Shown here piece by piece: positions 14,616 through 55,632 of a DNA stretch of 64,000 nt. The position numbers and the translations under genes were made by a program. Each line of letters starts with the position of its first letter. Position 1 is the stretch's first letter. The DNA lies in the NCBI GenBank assembly GCA_020692325.1, contig JAIMKR010000002.1, positions 144,370-208,369 on the forward strand. Reading direction: 5' to 3'. Source of the stretch: Desulfocurvus sp. (GTDB lineage: Bacteria; Desulfobacterota; Desulfovibrionia; Desulfovibrionales; Desulfovibrionaceae). The notes beneath the pieces were generated by a model. It was not told the origin of the DNA. It made no database searches and worked only from the letters and a program-made list of their open reading frames with translations.

Positions 14616-16052
14616 TCAGCCGCGCAGCACGACGCGATTGCGACCGCCGCGCTTGGCCTCGTAGAGCGCGCCGTCGGCGCGGGAAAGCGCGGCGTCGATG
14701 GCGGTTTCATCTGGCGCGAGTTCGGAAATGCCGGCGCTGACGGTCATAACGGCGGGCAGTCCATCGATACGCATGGCGGCGACGGCGGCGCGCAGACGAT
14801 CGGCGAGGGCCCGGGCGCTCACGCCATTGGTCTCCGGCAAAAGCAGGGCGAATTCCTCGCCGCCGATGCGGCCGATGATGTCCGGCGCACGGATGAGGGA
14901 ACGGCAAAGGTCGGCGAAGGACTTGAGGGCGGCGTCGCCGGCGGTGTGGCCATAGGTGTCGTTGATGTTTTTGAAAAGATCGATGTCAAGCATGACGACG
15001 GCGAGCGGCCGTTCGTAACGACGGGAACGGGAGACCTCCTCCCCTGCGAGTTCGAAGAAACGGCCACGGTTGAGCAAGCCGGTGAGCGGATCGGTGGAGG
15101 CCAGCAATTTGAGGTGGGCCTCCATTTCCTTGCGCAGGGTGATGTCGATGAGAATGGCCAGCAAAACGTGTTCACCGCGCAGAGCGGCCAGCGTGGAAAC
15201 GACGATGACGCTGCGGATTCCGCCGTCACCCAGGTCGAAACGGGTCTCGCATTGGTCGATCTGGCCCTGATTGGGAGGGCATTCGCCCACAAGGCGCTCC
15301 AACAGTTCCGCCGGATCGGCCAGGATGGACTCGCCAAAGAATTCATGGGCGGCGTCATTGGCGTGGATGACTCGGGAGGCGTCGCAGGCGAGGATGACGA
15401 GCGGCGCGGGCACGGCGCGCAGCAGGGATTGGAGCATGGCCTGATTTTCGGTAAGGTCACGATTGGCGGCCCATTCCAGGCGTTGCAACCGGTTGATGCG
15501 CACGAGGACGATGGCCAGCACCACATTGAGCGTGAGCACGGACAAGCCGATGCCCAGACTCAGGGCGGGGTTTTCGGCCCCGGAAAGATGCGCGGCCAGG
15601 GTGGCGGCGCTGACGGCGACGCCGGCGGCCATTACCCAGCGCGTGGGCATGGGCAGCGTGAGATAAAAGGCCATGGGCAGAATCACGAGAATGAGCCGGG
15701 CGCTTTCCGTTTGCGGCAAAAGCAGCGCGGCGGCGGCGGCGATGACTGGCGCGCACCAGGCGGCGCAAACATTCTGCACGCGGCGCAGGCTGGAGTTCCG
15801 GGGCAACAGCAGCCAGCCCAGCAGCGAAACGCCCACGATGACGCCGCGCGCGCCGATGGCGACGGGGAAATGCGGCTGCCCATAAAAACGCCAGTCGCTA
15901 AACAAAAACAACAAGTTGATTCCGGCGGCGCACCAGAAAACGGTGCGCGCCAAGCGCAGCAGCTCACGCAGGCGACCGTTCTTGAATTCGGCCTCCAGCG
16001 CTGGGTCGTTGAACTCTCCATACCAGGAGAGAGATTGCGCCGATTGCGTCAC
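14616..16052 (-). CDS. Membrane-bound PAS-GGDEF diguanylate cyclase
   Basis: The 478-residue protein has about six N-terminal membrane spans (residues 35-190), a PAS-like sensor segment (about 215-320), and a C-terminal GGDEF domain. The catalytic loop reads GGEEF and should make cyclic di-GMP from two GTP. An inhibitory site RAPD lies exactly five residues before GGEEF, so product feedback is expected. DxLTGLLNRG and the metal Asp in MLDIDLFKNIND are present. It is a single gene ending opposite sfsA. The signal sensed is unknown. Confidence 0.93.
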   Translation of the reverse strand: MTQSAQSLSWYGEFNDPALEAEFKNGRLRELLRLARTVFWCAAGINLLFLFSDWRFYGQPHFPVAIGARGVIVGVSLLGWLLLPRNSSLRRVQNVCAAWCAPVIAAAAALLLPQTESARLILVILPMAFYLTLPMPTRWVMAAGVAVSAATLAAHLSGAENPALSLGIGLSVLTLNVVLAIVLVRINRLQRLEWAANRDLTENQAMLQSLLRAVPAPLVILACDASRVIHANDAAHEFFGESILADPAELLERLVGECPPNQGQIDQCETRFDLGDGGIRSVIVVSTLAALRGEHVLLAILIDITLRKEMEAHLKLLASTDPLTGLLNRGRFFELAGEEVSRSRRYERPLAVVMLDIDLFKNINDTYGHTAGDAALKSFADLCRSLIRAPDIIGRIGGEEFALLLPETNGVSARALADRLRAAVAAMRIDGLPAVMTVSAGISELAPDETAIDAALSRADGALYEAKRGGRNRVVLRG

Positions 16053-16181: not shown

Positions 16182-16763
16182 TCAGCGCCCCAGCTTTGCG
16201 GAAAGCCACGTGGTCGGCGCAGGGGCGGTCGGCGCGGAGGCCTCGCGCGCGTCCACGCCGCGCGCCTCGCGCAGTTTGTCGGCGTAGAGGCTCCAAAACG
16301 ACTGGGCCAACGCGGTGGAAGCCGTGATGGGATAGGCCAGCGTGGCGCACATCCTGGCGGTGAGGACCTCGCACAGCAGCGGGTCGAAGAGGCGCGGATC
16401 GTCCATCCGGGCCACGTAGACCAGTTCAAGGGGCCCGGGCACGTCGCAAAACACGCTGGCCGCCTGGACCTCCCACGCCTCCACTTCCGCCTCGCCGCAA
16501 CGCACGGCAAGCACGCGCAGGCAGTCCGTGGGCAGAGGATAGGCGTGCTCGTACTGCCAACCGGCCGCCTCCGCACGGGCGGCGAGCTCGGCCTGACGCA
16601 CGGCGCAGTTCCATGGATGCGCGCGCAGCACGGCGTCGCGCACGGCGGGCCAGCGCTGATTGCACAAACGCGCGGCCTTGGTGTTGTCGCTCAGGGAGAC
16701 GATGGCCTCCTCGCCCAGGTCGACCAGGGCGTTGTTGCAGATCTCGATGACACTGGTGGCCAT
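16182..16763 (-). CDS. Podovirus tail tubular protein A (T7 gp11-like)
   Basis: The 193-residue protein begins MATSVIEICNNALVDLGEE, the characteristic opening of T7-type tail tubular/head-to-tail adaptor proteins. These proteins form a ring under the portal. NQRWPAVRDAVLRAHPWNCAVRQ and the closing pair of helices also fit the family, and its length is close to T7 gp11 (about 196). AAGGAGG lies six bases before the ATG. It is the last gene of a leftward operon after the portal. The reading frame is undamaged, which argues against simple prophage decay. A role in assembling a phage-like particle is inferred. Confidence 0.85.
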   Translation of the reverse strand: MATSVIEICNNALVDLGEEAIVSLSDNTKAARLCNQRWPAVRDAVLRAHPWNCAVRQAELAARAEAAGWQYEHAYPLPTDCLRVLAVRCGEAEVEAWEVQAASVFCDVPGPLELVYVARMDDPRLFDPLLCEVLTARMCATLAYPITASTALAQSFWSLYADKLREARGVDAREASAPTAPAPTTWLSAKLGR

Positions 16764-16772
16764 GTGTCCTCC

Positions 16773-18353
16773 TTACGCCTGTCCGGCGGATGGCGCGCCT
16801 GTGGTGAGCCGCTGCCGGCGCAGGGCCTCGACGGCCTCGCGCGGGCGCAGATAGTCGGCGGGCAGGCCAAAGAGCTCCGCCGCGTGCCGGGCCATGGCGT
16901 CGGGTTGGAAGTTGTCCAGCATGTGGAAGGGATCGTCCGTGCCGATGAGTGGGGCGAGATACCGCACGGCCTGGTTCAGGCTCTCGGCCTCCAGCTGGCG
17001 TTGGGCCAGGGCCACCGGGGTGACGTAGCTCACGCGCAGGGCTCCGGCGGGCAGCCCGGCCGGCCAGGGAGGCAACTCGCCCTCGCACAGCAGAAGATTG
17101 AACACGCGCTCGATGAGCGGGGCCAGAAACTCCGTTTGCAGCCTGCCGAGCACCGGGCCGAGGATGCGCATCTTCTCGCTCTGCCGGATGAGCGCTTCCG
17201 TGGCCGTGGCGGTGATGTCCCCGGGCGTGAGCTGGTCGGCCAGAAAGATGCGCCGGATGGACTGCCTGCGGCGTTCGGTCATGGCCTCGATGGAGGCGAG
17301 GTCCACGCGGATGGGCAGGGATTCAATGCGATCCTGCGAGCCGGCGCGATAATAGGACAAGCCGCCGGGACCGGACCGCACCGGACCGAGGAAACCGTCG
17401 TCCGGCACCATGAGCGGCGGGTCGGCCATTTTCTCCGCGGCCATGAGCGCGGTCTTGCTCATGGCATTGAGCACGCGCACGTCGGACAGCGCGGTATTCC
17501 CAGGCCCGCGACCGTAGGCCTCGCCCGCGGTCTTGGACCAGCGCGGACACATGTAGGGCATCTCCAGATAGCCCGATTCCTCAAGCAACGTCGCCGTGTC
17601 GCGTTCGATGAACAGGCTGGCGAAGGGAAAGTCCCGGCTGGCCGGGCTCGCCGGGTCGCGGTTTTCACGCGGGAACACGGCGTGGACCAGCTCGACGCGG
17701 GCGTCGGGGTTCTCCCGCGCGAGTTTCCGCACATCCGCCGAACAGGCGGCGCCCCACTGCGAAAAAGTCTGCCGCGCCGTGAGCGTGTACGTGCGGATGA
17801 CCGTGTCCACCATGCCGCGCGCGTCCTCGGCCAGGCAGGTTTCGGCCAGGGGCCGAACGCTGAAGCGGGCCATGGTCTCGGCGTCCTGCTCCACGTGCAG
17901 CACGGCCGTGCCGAACAGGCACAGGTCCAGATACAATTCATGCACGCTGGCTTGAAACCCTGTGGCCTCGGTGTTGAAGATGGCCAGCAAGCGCTCGCGG
18001 CAGCCGGAAAGAAAACTCCGCGCGGCCTCGTCGTCTGGTGCGCCGCACCCCAGGCGCAGGTCGAACCAAGGCAGCGCCGGGTTGGTGAGCAGTCCGCCCA
18101 GCGCCGAGGCCAGCAGCTCCAGGCTGTGCGCCGGCGTGGAGTCGAACACGGAGGAATCGTCTGCCCTGGCCACCCCGCCGGGCGAGGCGAGAGCGGGATC
18201 CTTGCGCGGCATGATCTGGGCGGCCAGCTCGCGCCAAACGGGCGTGAAACGCTCACGCGCGGCGCGAAGGGCCGACAACCGATCCAGCGCGGCCAGCGCC
18301 CGGTCGTTTTTCTCCGGCGGCGCGGCGGCGGGACGTCCCGCGCGGGCGCTCAT
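16773..18353 (-). CDS. Podovirus portal / head-tail connector protein (T7 gp8-like)
   Basis: The 526-residue protein matches the T7-type head-tail connector family (T7 gp8 is about 536 residues). Visible features are the N-terminal helical region with FTPVWRELAAQIMPR, HSLELLASALGGLLTNPALPWFDL, the region around YGRGPGNTALSDVRVLN, and FLADQLTPGDITATATEAL before the stem helices. The portal is the dodecameric ring through which DNA enters and leaves the capsid. Its ATG overlaps the stop of the small upstream gene and it ends nine bases before the gp11-like gene. The frame is intact. Confidence 0.9.
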   Translation of the reverse strand: MSARAGRPAAAPPEKNDRALAALDRLSALRAARERFTPVWRELAAQIMPRKDPALASPGGVARADDSSVFDSTPAHSLELLASALGGLLTNPALPWFDLRLGCGAPDDEAARSFLSGCRERLLAIFNTEATGFQASVHELYLDLCLFGTAVLHVEQDAETMARFSVRPLAETCLAEDARGMVDTVIRTYTLTARQTFSQWGAACSADVRKLARENPDARVELVHAVFPRENRDPASPASRDFPFASLFIERDTATLLEESGYLEMPYMCPRWSKTAGEAYGRGPGNTALSDVRVLNAMSKTALMAAEKMADPPLMVPDDGFLGPVRSGPGGLSYYRAGSQDRIESLPIRVDLASIEAMTERRRQSIRRIFLADQLTPGDITATATEALIRQSEKMRILGPVLGRLQTEFLAPLIERVFNLLLCEGELPPWPAGLPAGALRVSYVTPVALAQRQLEAESLNQAVRYLAPLIGTDDPFHMLDNFQPDAMARHAAELFGLPADYLRPREAVEALRRQRLTTGAPSAGQA

Positions 18354-18661
18354 TGGCCAAGCCTCGCCTTAAGCTGCGCGGCGGCCACGCTGGGCACGCC
18401 GAGAGTCTCGGCCACGGCGTCGCTACCGGCCTGCTCCGCCCGATCGCTCTGCCGGGCTTTGGCCAACAGTGCGGCCTCGGCCTTCTGACGATCGGCCTTG
18501 CGGCGTGCCTCGGCCGCCTGCTCCTCGGCGGCGGCATCGTCGTCGGTCCGGGACGCGGCCGCCGGCTCGGCCTGATGCGCACCGCCGGAAAGTCCGCTCG
18601 CGGCGCCAAAGATGATGTCGCTGATGATGGAAATGGGAGAAAAACCTCCGCCTCCGCCCAT
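18350..18661 (-). CDS. Small Ala-rich phage-like protein, first gene of portal operon
   Basis: This 103-residue product has a Gly-rich start, a short hydrophobic stretch (residues 8-26) and a charged Ala/Gln/Glu/Lys-rich helical remainder. It resembles the small proteins that podoviruses often encode just upstream of the portal. The function is not known and I do not recognise a named family. AGGAGG lies about five bases upstream of the ATG, and its stop overlaps the portal start. It is the promoter-proximal gene after the shared phage-type promoter. Confidence 0.75.
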   Translation of the reverse strand: MGGGGGFSPISIISDIIFGAASGLSGGAHQAEPAAASRTDDDAAAEEQAAEARRKADRQKAEAALLAKARQSDRAEQAGSDAVAETLGVPSVAAAQLKARLGQ

Positions 18662-18713: not shown

Positions 18714-18790
18714 AGTATAGCCCCGGGCTCGCGACGGAGCGGAAAAGACCCCGGAATTGGCCGGCGCGGGGATGAAAAAGGCGTCTTGAC
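18714..18790 (-). promoter_or_regulatory. Shared phage-gene promoter, copy A (portal operon)
   Basis: Read leftward, GTCAAGACGCC (18790-18780) is followed after exactly 60 bases by TATACT (18719-18714), 52 bases before the first operon gene. Between them CCGGCC lies at offset 16-21, CGGG at 27-30, TTTTC at 34-38 and CCCGGGG at 53-59 after the upstream box. The same blocks at the same offsets precede the scaffold gene (copy B) and most recur before the Bbp19-like gene (copy C). There is no standard -35 hexamer, which suggests an activator or special sigma factor acts through the upstream boxes. Confidence 0.7.
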
Positions 18791-53242: not shown

Positions 53243-54145
53243 CTACGCGCGCGCCCTGGCCGGTTCCTGCTGCGAGGTCCCACCAGGGTAGAGGGCTTCG
53301 AATCCCTCGCGCACCTGCCGCACAAAGTCGTTGTCGCGGCGGGACGGATCGAAGTAGCGCGGGTCGCGCATCATCTCGCGCAAACGCTGAGGGCTGAGGG
53401 CCTGCCCGACGCCGGTCCCGGAGGTTTTGACGACGGATTCGCTGACGAGAGGGGCGACACGGGCGAAGGCCTGGATGACGCTGGCGTCGTCGGCGCCGCC
53501 ATTCTGTTCCAGCCGCTGCATGAGCTCCTTGCCACCGAGGGCGAGAACGGCCTTGCGCGCCGCCTCGAGAACGCCGGCAACAGCCCCACCATGGACCTGC
53601 CGCAACGTGGAGAGCTGACGGTCCCGGACGAGCCGACGATCGTTTTCGCGCTTGGCGTCGGCGTCGCGCGCGCCCTGGATGTTGAGAGGCACGAACCAGG
53701 CGAAAAGACCGGCGACCTGGGCGTTGGAGAGCCCAAGATCGTGCGCCTTGGCGAGAAAAGCATCACGCAGGGACTCGTCGATGGCGAAATCTCCGGGCAT
53801 GTCCAGGTCGGGCAGGCGATAGTCCGCGGGGGAGGCTGGGACGTCGTCGCCAGTGGACTCCCCGCCGGCGAGCAACGTCCCGCTTTTTTTCCCAAGCAAA
53901 CGCTGGGCATGGACCAGGGCCTTGATGGCCTCGTCCTTGCTCGCATACTTGGCCAGGGCGGGGTGGCTGCGCAGGGGCACCTGGACTTCCGCGCCGGAGG
54001 CGTCGCGGCCGGGGGCGGTCCAGTCCTCGGGCAGGGTCCGCCGCCAGTCGTCGGCGGAGGCGTCGGCAATGGCCTGCGCGCCAGCGGCGAGGATGGAGTT
54101 CTGGGGGCTTTTTTTCTGAACGTCGCTGTGTCGGGCATCGGGCAT
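53243..54145 (-). CDS. Podovirus capsid assembly scaffold protein (T7 gp9-like)
   Basis: The 300-residue protein fits the T7-type scaffold (gp9, about 307 residues). It has a disordered acidic N-terminus, a helical centre with KYASKDEAIKALVHAQRLLGKK, DFAIDESLRDAFLAKAHDLGLSNAQVAGLFAWF, a long charged helix, and a C-terminal segment (RDPRYFDPSRRDNDFVRQVREGFEALYPG) that resembles the capsid-contacting end. AAGGAG lies six bases before the ATG. The scaffold guides capsid shell assembly. It stands alone, 35 kb from the portal operon, under the same promoter type, with the frame intact. Confidence 0.8.
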   Translation of the reverse strand: MPDARHSDVQKKSPQNSILAAGAQAIADASADDWRRTLPEDWTAPGRDASGAEVQVPLRSHPALAKYASKDEAIKALVHAQRLLGKKSGTLLAGGESTGDDVPASPADYRLPDLDMPGDFAIDESLRDAFLAKAHDLGLSNAQVAGLFAWFVPLNIQGARDADAKRENDRRLVRDRQLSTLRQVHGGAVAGVLEAARKAVLALGGKELMQRLEQNGGADDASVIQAFARVAPLVSESVVKTSGTGVGQALSPQRLREMMRDPRYFDPSRRDNDFVRQVREGFEALYPGGTSQQEPARARA

Positions 54146-54223: not shown

Positions 54224-54299
54224 AGTATACCCCGGGATTTCCGGCGGGCCGAAAATGGCCCGTTTTCGGCCGGGAAAAAACCGCGAATGGCGTCTTGAC
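54224..54299 (-). promoter_or_regulatory. Shared phage-gene promoter, copy B (scaffold gene)
   Basis: GTCAAGACGCC (54299-54289) is followed after 59 bases by TATACT (54229-54224), 78 bases before the scaffold start. CCGGCC at offset 16-21, CGGG at 27-30, TTTTC at 34-38 and CCCGGGG at 53-59 coincide with copy A position by position. The upstream 11-mer is identical to copy A, although the coding regions are unrelated. Confidence 0.7.
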
Positions 54300-54308
54300 G
54301 AACGACGG

Positions 54309-54683
54309 TCAGTCGCGTGGAGGATCGACGCGCAGCTCCGAGGTGCGCCACAAGTGGGGCGGTGCGAAACCGAGCAGGCGCAGGAATTTGGGCCAACGCG
54401 GATCGGGGTGGTCGCCTTGCTCGGCGCGCAGAGCGACGATACGCGACTTGCCAAGGCGGCGCGCCATGTCGATGAGCTGGCGCACGTCCGCCCGAAGAGA
54501 GCGGACCACACCCGGTCCGAAGCGCAGCACCTCCAGATGCACTTCCAGACTGTCTGGATGTTCGGCCAAGGCCGCGGCGGCGTAGACTCCCCGGTCGTCG
54601 AAGAGTATGAAATGCCGGTAGCGCCCGGGATCGGGCAAATATCTTTGCGAGGCATGGACGTTTTTTGTTGGCGCGCTTACCAC
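54309..54683 (-). CDS. Putative internal virion-like GNAT-fold protein (T7 gp13-like)
   Basis: The 124-residue protein resembles acetyltransferase-fold proteins that podoviruses encode as internal virion protein A (T7 gp13, about 138 residues). The text HFILFDDRGVYAAAALAE, ADVRQLIDMARRLGKSRIVALRAE and WPKFLRLLGFAPPHLWRT follows the GNAT strand-helix order, with the terminal pattern of a residue-rich final strand. It has a GTG start with AAGGAG ten bases upstream. It ends ten bases before the promoter of the scaffold gene. I see no good copy of the shared promoter before it. Identity as a virion protein is inferred from fold and neighbourhood. Confidence 0.55.
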   Translation of the reverse strand: MVSAPTKNVHASQRYLPDPGRYRHFILFDDRGVYAAAALAEHPDSLEVHLEVLRFGPGVVRSLRADVRQLIDMARRLGKSRIVALRAEQGDHPDPRWPKFLRLLGFAPPHLWRTSELRVDPPRD

Positions 54684-55309: not shown

Positions 55310-55534
55310 CTACCGCGATCCATTCATTCCCCTGCCCTCCGATTCGGCCAACATCCGTCGAATGTGCAGCGCTAGGCTACGGCGCCCCTCGTTGTAGGCC
55401 GCTCGTTGCGGATCGGAATGAAAGCTGCTTTCCCACACGAAGGCCCTGGCCTCAATATCCGCAAGCACGGCTTGACCGGCCTCACCCTCGAACGCCCGCG
55501 CATACTGCCGCTGCAAATCCTCCTGATCGTGCAT
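55310..55534 (-). CDS. Bbp19-like small phage protein
   Basis: The 74-residue protein reads YARAFEGEAGQAVLADIEAR, then a span with SFHSDPQRAAYNEGRRSLAL and a final helix. This is the pattern of the Bbp19-like family that podoviruses and related phages carry in their structural region (a QRVLADL and FREGQRDVVLYI type consensus). AAGGAGG lies eight bases before the ATG at 55534. An open frame continues upstream to 55693 but has no such site and would run through the shared promoter. Third separate phage-like locus in the window. Function unknown. Confidence 0.75.
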   Translation of the reverse strand: MHDQEDLQRQYARAFEGEAGQAVLADIEARAFVWESSFHSDPQRAAYNEGRRSLALHIRRMLAESEGRGMNGSR

Positions 55535-55556: not shown

Positions 55557-55632
55557 AGCATAGCATGGGCCGTGAGACCAAGACGAAATTCCCCTTTTCT
55601 GGCCGCGAAAGAGACGAAAATTTCCTCTTGAC
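55557..55632 (-). promoter_or_regulatory. Shared phage-gene promoter, copy C (Bbp19-like gene)
   Basis: GTCAAGAGGAA (55632-55622) is followed after 59 bases by TATGCT (55562-55557), 22 bases before the start codon. CGGCC at offset 17-21, an A run near 24-27, GGG at 28-30 and TTT at 34-36 fall at the same offsets as in copies A and B. The upstream box and the -10 are less conserved, so this copy is the weakest of the three but its spacing is exact. Confidence 0.55.

Follow-up and report, generated by a model that had tools for sequence, protein, structure and literature searches.

The shared element at positions 18,714 to 18,790 is considered likely to serve as a promoter common to the scattered parts of a podovirus-type system resembling a gene transfer agent (GTA) in Humidesulfovibrio and related Desulfovibrionaceae. 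Scattered virion and toxin-like genes lying behind one promoter suggest a domesticated virus, probably a GTA, which would be run as a single switchable system. Sharing of the element, its specificity, the identities of the genes behind it, their dispersal, their conserved neighbourhoods and purifying selection on them are all observed directly. A first-pass annotation of this DNA had described three promoter copies, and so understated the case; those three loci make up little of the whole system, which includes toxin-like genes as well.

The window is the whole stretch of 64,000 nucleotides that was analysed (C21:144370-208369, from a genome of 3.05 Mb in 27 contigs). All three copies described earlier are present in it on the minus strand; the bit scores below come from R1, a sequence-only position model whose training set included five sites of the genome itself. 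An Rfam search of the window gave no match. The relevant features are:

16182..16763, minus strand: tail tube A-like protein, 193 aa (phrog_394, E=4e-52)
16773..18353, minus strand: portal / head-tail connector, 526 aa (PF12236, E=4.9e-131; phrog_332)
18350..18661, minus strand: portal leader gene, 103 aa (MGGGGG...), first gene of the operon
18714..18790, minus strand: shared promoter element of the portal/tail-tube operon, GTCAAGACGCC-N60-TATACT read from 18790 to 18714; 43.9 bits with R1
53243..54145, minus strand: capsid assembly scaffold, 300 aa (PF05396-like at 25.4 bits, cut-off 27.1; phrog_3742)
54224..54299, minus strand: shared promoter element of the scaffold gene, GTCAAGACGCC-N59-TATACT read from 54299 to 54224; 60.4 bits with R1
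54309..54683, minus strand: 124-aa gene of unknown family, directly upstream of the scaffold promoter
55310..55534, minus strand: Bbp19-like protein, 74 aa (PF25181, E=9e-18)
55557..55632, minus strand: shared promoter element of the Bbp19-like gene, GTCAAGAGGAA-N59-TATGCT read from 55632 to 55557

The pattern GTCAAGA-N62..66-TATRCT matches three times in the window and not once in 200 first-order shuffles, and over the inner 63 positions the three copies show 28-35 pairwise matches, compared with 17.2 +/- 3.9 for random window pairs. The 124-aa gene is kept at the same place in three relatives with 55-59% identity. A GGDEF-like diguanylate-cyclase gene (14616-16052, minus strand) lies directly after the portal/tail-tube operon.

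Across the whole genome the wider pattern GTCAAGA-N55..75-TATRCT gives five matches against one for a reversed-pattern control; the two beyond those of the window precede the large terminase gene and a Tlde1-type gene. R1 finds exactly ten sites in the 3.05 Mb at E <= 1; a second model, R2, trained on 43 sites in three relatives and zero own-genome sequence, recovers the identical ten and nothing else at E <= 0.05, its independence being limited in that the relatives' training sites were located using R1 with its five own sites. The elements of this genome are degenerate, and its portal and TerL copies reach just 16-19 bits with the relatives-only model. The ten sites are distributed over four contigs, those on C21 spanning 136-322 kb, and every one precedes virion-type or toxin-like genes:

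Site 1, C21:136.7k: small terminase, phrog_4044
Site 2, C21:163k (in the window): portal leader, portal (PF12236) and tail tube
Site 3, C21:198.6k (in the window): scaffold
Site 4, C21:199.9k (in the window): Bbp19-like protein, PF25181
Site 5, C21:321k: large terminase, phrog_2 profile
Site 6, C27:227k: major capsid protein, PF19821, and a small second protein
Site 7, C27:178k: operon of internal virion-type proteins, a tail protein, a fibre, a holin (PF11351, GTA_holin_3TM) and a phage lysozyme (PF00959)
Site 8, C12:82.9k: Tlde1-type effector (Tlde1 / L,D-transpeptidase domain)
Sites 9 and 10, C3:136k and C27:151k: two RHS/YD-repeat genes

The chromosome therefore encodes genes for the structure, packaging and lysis of a tailed phage, which is a trait of GTAs. 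The small terminase was missed when the genome was read gene by gene, and was found through the element. An AAPAKK-rich small secreted gene is situated between the small-terminase promoter and its gene, such that the transcript would cross it antisense (L008 11665-12755, on C21, ~7-8 kb before the window); the arrangement is kept in several species (L079, L083, L105). Antisense control of this secreted gene was considered for one conserved site and dropped, the next gene being the small terminase (phrog_4044); this apparent exception among the relatives' sites is thus taken to drive the small terminase.

A family search returned near-consensus copies in congeneric genomes, and with R1 the element is found in 14 of the 15, at 7-25 near-consensus copies each. 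In three relatives (G029, G083 and G061) the strong sites all lie ahead of a virion gene, an RHS gene or a modular effector, the virion targets being capsid, scaffold, Bbp19, portal leader, tail tube, both terminases and the tail/lysis operon; in other genera (g5, g14, g21, g23) the element stands before capsid, portal, tube, large terminase, RHS and effector-like genes. The scan of genome and relatives suggested by the first-pass annotation therefore places the element ahead of capsid, both terminases, portal, tail tube, scaffold and the tail-holin-lysozyme operon, and its proposal that the portal, scaffold and Bbp19-like loci form one regulated system is supported by these sites. In relatives the portal leader gene likewise follows the element, as at the portal operon here; the tail tube gene, which is downstream of the portal in the operon here, has its own element copy in relatives. 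The tail/lysis operon adjoins scaffold and Bbp19 (~10 kb) in relatives and lies on a separate contig here (L110; L075, L081, L093), which is perhaps a recent step of dispersal.

The element is ~84 bp long and features a half-palindrome, CCCTGTCAA(C)AGGG, a direct repeat of ATTTTTGTCC whose two copies are separated by 32 bp, and TATACT; 59 aligned sites hold ~108 bits over this length and read AACCCTGTCAAccgGGgAATTTTTGTCCTTTTacCGGCCAAAAacgGGnnAtTTTTGTCC-N17/18-TATaCT. Recurrence of ATTTTTGTCC at a distance of 32 bp, near three helical turns, is seen in 54/59 sites. Counted from a start site placed by means of the -10, the half-palindrome would be centred at about -80 and the upstream ATTTTTGTCC at about -67, with the second 32 bp downstream. 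In several genera the 5' end is a near-perfect palindrome, CCCTGTCAACAGGG, and just 23 of the 59 sites keep at least five of its seven pairs. No match to the IHF consensus was seen in the element by eye. The portal promoters of relatives (L076, L082, L097, L230) have the second T-tract inverted (CCAAAAATGTCC versus ATTTTTGTCC) with unchanged spacing. An apparent 6-bp deletion in the promoter of the Tlde1 gene proved to be an artefact; TATGCT had been mistaken for the -10 instead of the TATACT that follows.

The second repeat ends in TTGTCC in 39/59 sites, and the distance from its end to the -10 is exactly 17 or 18 bp in all 59 sites of the relatives; it is from this constant distance that the second repeat is considered to coincide with a weak -35. 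In 32/59 sites the -10 is of the extended kind (TGn). The core is thus sigma-70-like (TTGTCC-N17/18-TATaCT) and not of the unlike type that marks the regulon of an alternative sigma factor, so that such a factor, as put forward in the first-pass annotation, finds no support. Its remark that a -35 hexamer is lacking holds roughly for this genome, where the hexamer has decayed to ~2.3/6 matches to TTGACA, and fails for the relatives, in which TTGTCC stands 17/18 bp before the -10.

Conserved DNA lies mostly from -90 to -31, upstream of the -35 and overlapping only that hexamer; for this reason activation is considered likelier than repression. The long conserved region, the weak -35 and the gene set are all accounted for by a regulator that acts from upstream on a housekeeping-sigma promoter, and a dedicated DNA-binding regulator working with the housekeeping sigma factor would be the best fit to these sequences. 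Behind none of the ten own-genome sites is there an obvious DNA-binding gene. The best site of one genome, G218, is followed by an Lrp/AsnC-like gene, with a terminator-like hairpin in between; this strongest copy of that genome (G218:C1:878221-878302, L245) has no open reading frame behind it, and, given the hairpin ~85 nt downstream, it may yield a small RNA. It is unlikely that the upstream element is instead an operator for a common repressor, with SOS-like or phage-like derepression and a system otherwise unchanged: TTGTCC at 17-18 bp, together with a good -10 that is often extended, could suffice for unaided transcription, and palindromic half-sites are typical of repressors; however, the conserved DNA overlaps only the -35 within its -90 to -31 span, and a -35 with 2.3/6 matches would make for a poor unaided promoter in this genome.

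Beyond virion genes, the element heads a variable family of putatively antibacterial effectors with shared N-termini, a GGGKPQPY-like linker and differing C-terminal domains. One modular effector is a Tlde1 / L,D-transpeptidase by profile; other C-termini resemble, by eye and without a Pfam match, an M15-type peptidase and an NlpC/P60-type amidase, and the RHS genes contain a TEN_YD-shell. Some of the modular effectors are followed by signal-peptide genes, which could be immunity genes. Three kinds of effector N-terminus were seen, together with one tandem duplication (L087 1096-3943, L088, L094-L096, L099-L101, L107). A second, partial Tlde1 C-terminal domain lies ~2 kb behind the full gene (L006 10437-10658), as would result from duplication of the effector followed by truncation. 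Type VI secretion was considered as a delivery route and rejected, as the sheath gene VipA is absent in 13/15 genomes tested, this one included. Effectors as members of the regulon are unusual for a GTA. It is tentatively possible that the dispersed phage-derived particle and the polymorphic RHS and peptidoglycan-degrading effectors, with their immunity-like genes, combine gene transfer and the killing of non-kin in a single lysis-dependent programme, the effectors possibly being loaded into the particle.

These genes also raise a second alternative, in which the particle would be an antibacterial device, a phage-derived shell or lysis programme that delivers or releases RHS and peptidoglycan-degrading effectors and transfers no DNA. 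The presence of the shared element at modular effectors, some with secreted immunity-like genes, and the lack of VipA in most of the genomes tested are consistent with it. However, both terminase subunits, the portal and the scaffold are retained under the element, which points to DNA packaging; such a device is distinctly unlikely.

A GTA-like system is further supported by how its genes are placed and conserved. The capsid gene is single-copy in 13/15 congeneric genomes and is found in 9/44 genera sampled; the portal gene is single-copy in most genomes. Among complete or near-complete genomes, capsid and portal are adjacent in G218, G148 and G020, 23-28 kb apart in G091, G116 and G128, and 92-363 kb apart in G139, G224, G161, G201, G208 and G072; the capsid pair is isolated amid host genes in G139, G208 and G128. 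The loci of the present genome are flanked by ordinary chromosomal genes, and the genes of the system appear too widely spread for one particle, as is typical of GTAs (sites on four contigs here; up to 363 kb between capsid and portal in complete relatives). At the capsid, large terminase, portal, tail and scaffold loci this genome shares its host neighbours with the relatives, and conservation of the virion genes is about equal to that of these neighbours (capsid 82% versus 80-82%; TerL 71-72% versus 71-75%). The virion genes have a dN/dS of 0.13-0.47, which denotes purifying selection; neighbours, identity levels and dN/dS together give the vertical inheritance and selective maintenance seen in GTAs. 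No integrase was found within 14 kb of any site or within 50 kb of a structural locus; as in GTAs, an integration and replication module is lacking, with replication genes judged from gene lists. The contiguous mobile cluster with integrase that a functional prophage would have is replaced by single genes amid host genes.

Viral contigs from other bacteria contain the matching gene families as clustered cassettes of 15-20 kb in the order portal leader, portal, Bbp19, scaffold, capsid, tube and tail, which suggests an ancestral arrangement. Some of these contigs (L161, L155, L138 and others, 14-21 kb) are compact podovirus-type gene sets with capsids 53-55% identical; they are apparently alphaproteobacterial, and are possibly small prophages or clustered GTA-like elements. 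That the loci are decaying fragments of at least one prophage, with the element a leftover late promoter of no present function, would agree with these ancestral-looking cassettes and with a gene content like that of a T7/Bbp-like podovirus; this is very improbable, however, since the genes are intact, single-copy and under purifying selection, their host neighbourhoods are constant across species, the element is kept at ~108 bits over 59 scattered sites, and RHS and effector genes also lie behind it. A prophage remnant was accordingly rejected on conservation, synteny and dispersal. Although one genome has up to 25 matches, a general genus promoter, served by an alternative sigma factor or broad regulator with phage genes as one class of many, can be given almost no credence, as the ten own sites and the strong sites of G029, G083 and G061 are all virion, RHS or effector sites with zero metabolic or housekeeping targets.

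Under the GTA-like reading, an ancestral short-tailed phage cluster would have been domesticated and split into separately placed transcription units, each under one ~84-bp promoter with its half-palindrome, two ATTTTTGTCC, TTGTCC, 17-18 bp and TATACT. Capsid, portal, scaffold, both terminase subunits, tail, holin and lysozyme would then be produced together, RHS and peptidoglycan-targeting effectors would be co-produced, and release would occur by lysis. We infer activation by a regulator, assembly of a particle and packaging of host DNA.

Not many lineages are known to have GTAs, whose resemblance to broken prophages makes them hard to recognise; in the present case a single DNA element locates the scattered parts of such a system in a genome. 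It thereby offers a way into the GTA-like elements of sulfate reducers from genome sequence; a GTA of this group has been known since 1987, and its genes are barely studied. As clustered-to-dispersed stages are found within the family, the domestication of a phage via regulatory capture becomes traceable, and toxin-like genes under the shared promoter would tie gene transfer to competition. In the openly accessible papers searched, a dispersed GTA-like system, a common promoter or co-regulated effectors were not found for Desulfovibrionaceae.

P2 Ogr and Mu C each exemplify one activator upstream of several late promoters with a poor -35; those promoters lie within one phage genome, whereas the present ones are tens to hundreds of kb apart on a host chromosome. 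Dd1 of Desulfovibrio desulfuricans ATCC 27774 is a short-tailed particle. Its host belongs to the Desulfovibrionaceae, as does the present system, which by host alone makes it the nearest named relative; its description as a GTA by Rapp and Wall dates from 1987 (cited by PMC11841831). The putative Dd1 island, Ddes_0703-0713, is annotated as contiguous (PMC5701242), whereas the present genes are dispersed; in the literature found, a shared promoter is not reported for Dd1. PMC11841831 also gives a small terminase without a DNA-binding domain as a GTA trait.

Multilocus GTAs are already known from RcGTA and BhGTA (PMC6363796, PMC9662315). In Brachyspira hyodysenteriae, the genome of BhGTA (VSH-1) is believed to be spread over a number of loci, and its terL is apart from the structural cluster, a likeness to the present system (PMC9662315); the text consulted gives a 16-kb structural cluster and describes no common promoter, in contrast to what is seen here. 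For RcGTA of Rhodobacter capsulatus, PMC6363796 names one direct activator, GafA, for scattered GTA promoters, and cites Hynes et al. 2016 for a multilocus genome. RcGTA and the present system share phage-derived structural genes, several chromosomal loci and vertical inheritance; RcGTA is siphovirus-like with its structural genes mostly in one cluster (PMC11409702), whereas the present system is podovirus-type with its two terminase subunits, portal, scaffold and capsid all apart, and has effectors in the regulon, which the texts consulted do not describe for RcGTA.

The promoter of CcGTA from Caulobacter crescentus contains an upstream GafY site, an IHF site and an RpoD core (PMC11150451), and is similar to the present promoter in its far-upstream element, intermediate element, weak -35 and housekeeping-sigma -10. 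In CcGTA a single promoter serves a contiguous cluster, and anti-termination depends on GafZ, whereas here there are at least ten copies, and the sequences are different. The CcGTA promoter and the control of RcGTA by GafA are working models for a mechanism of the kind proposed here.
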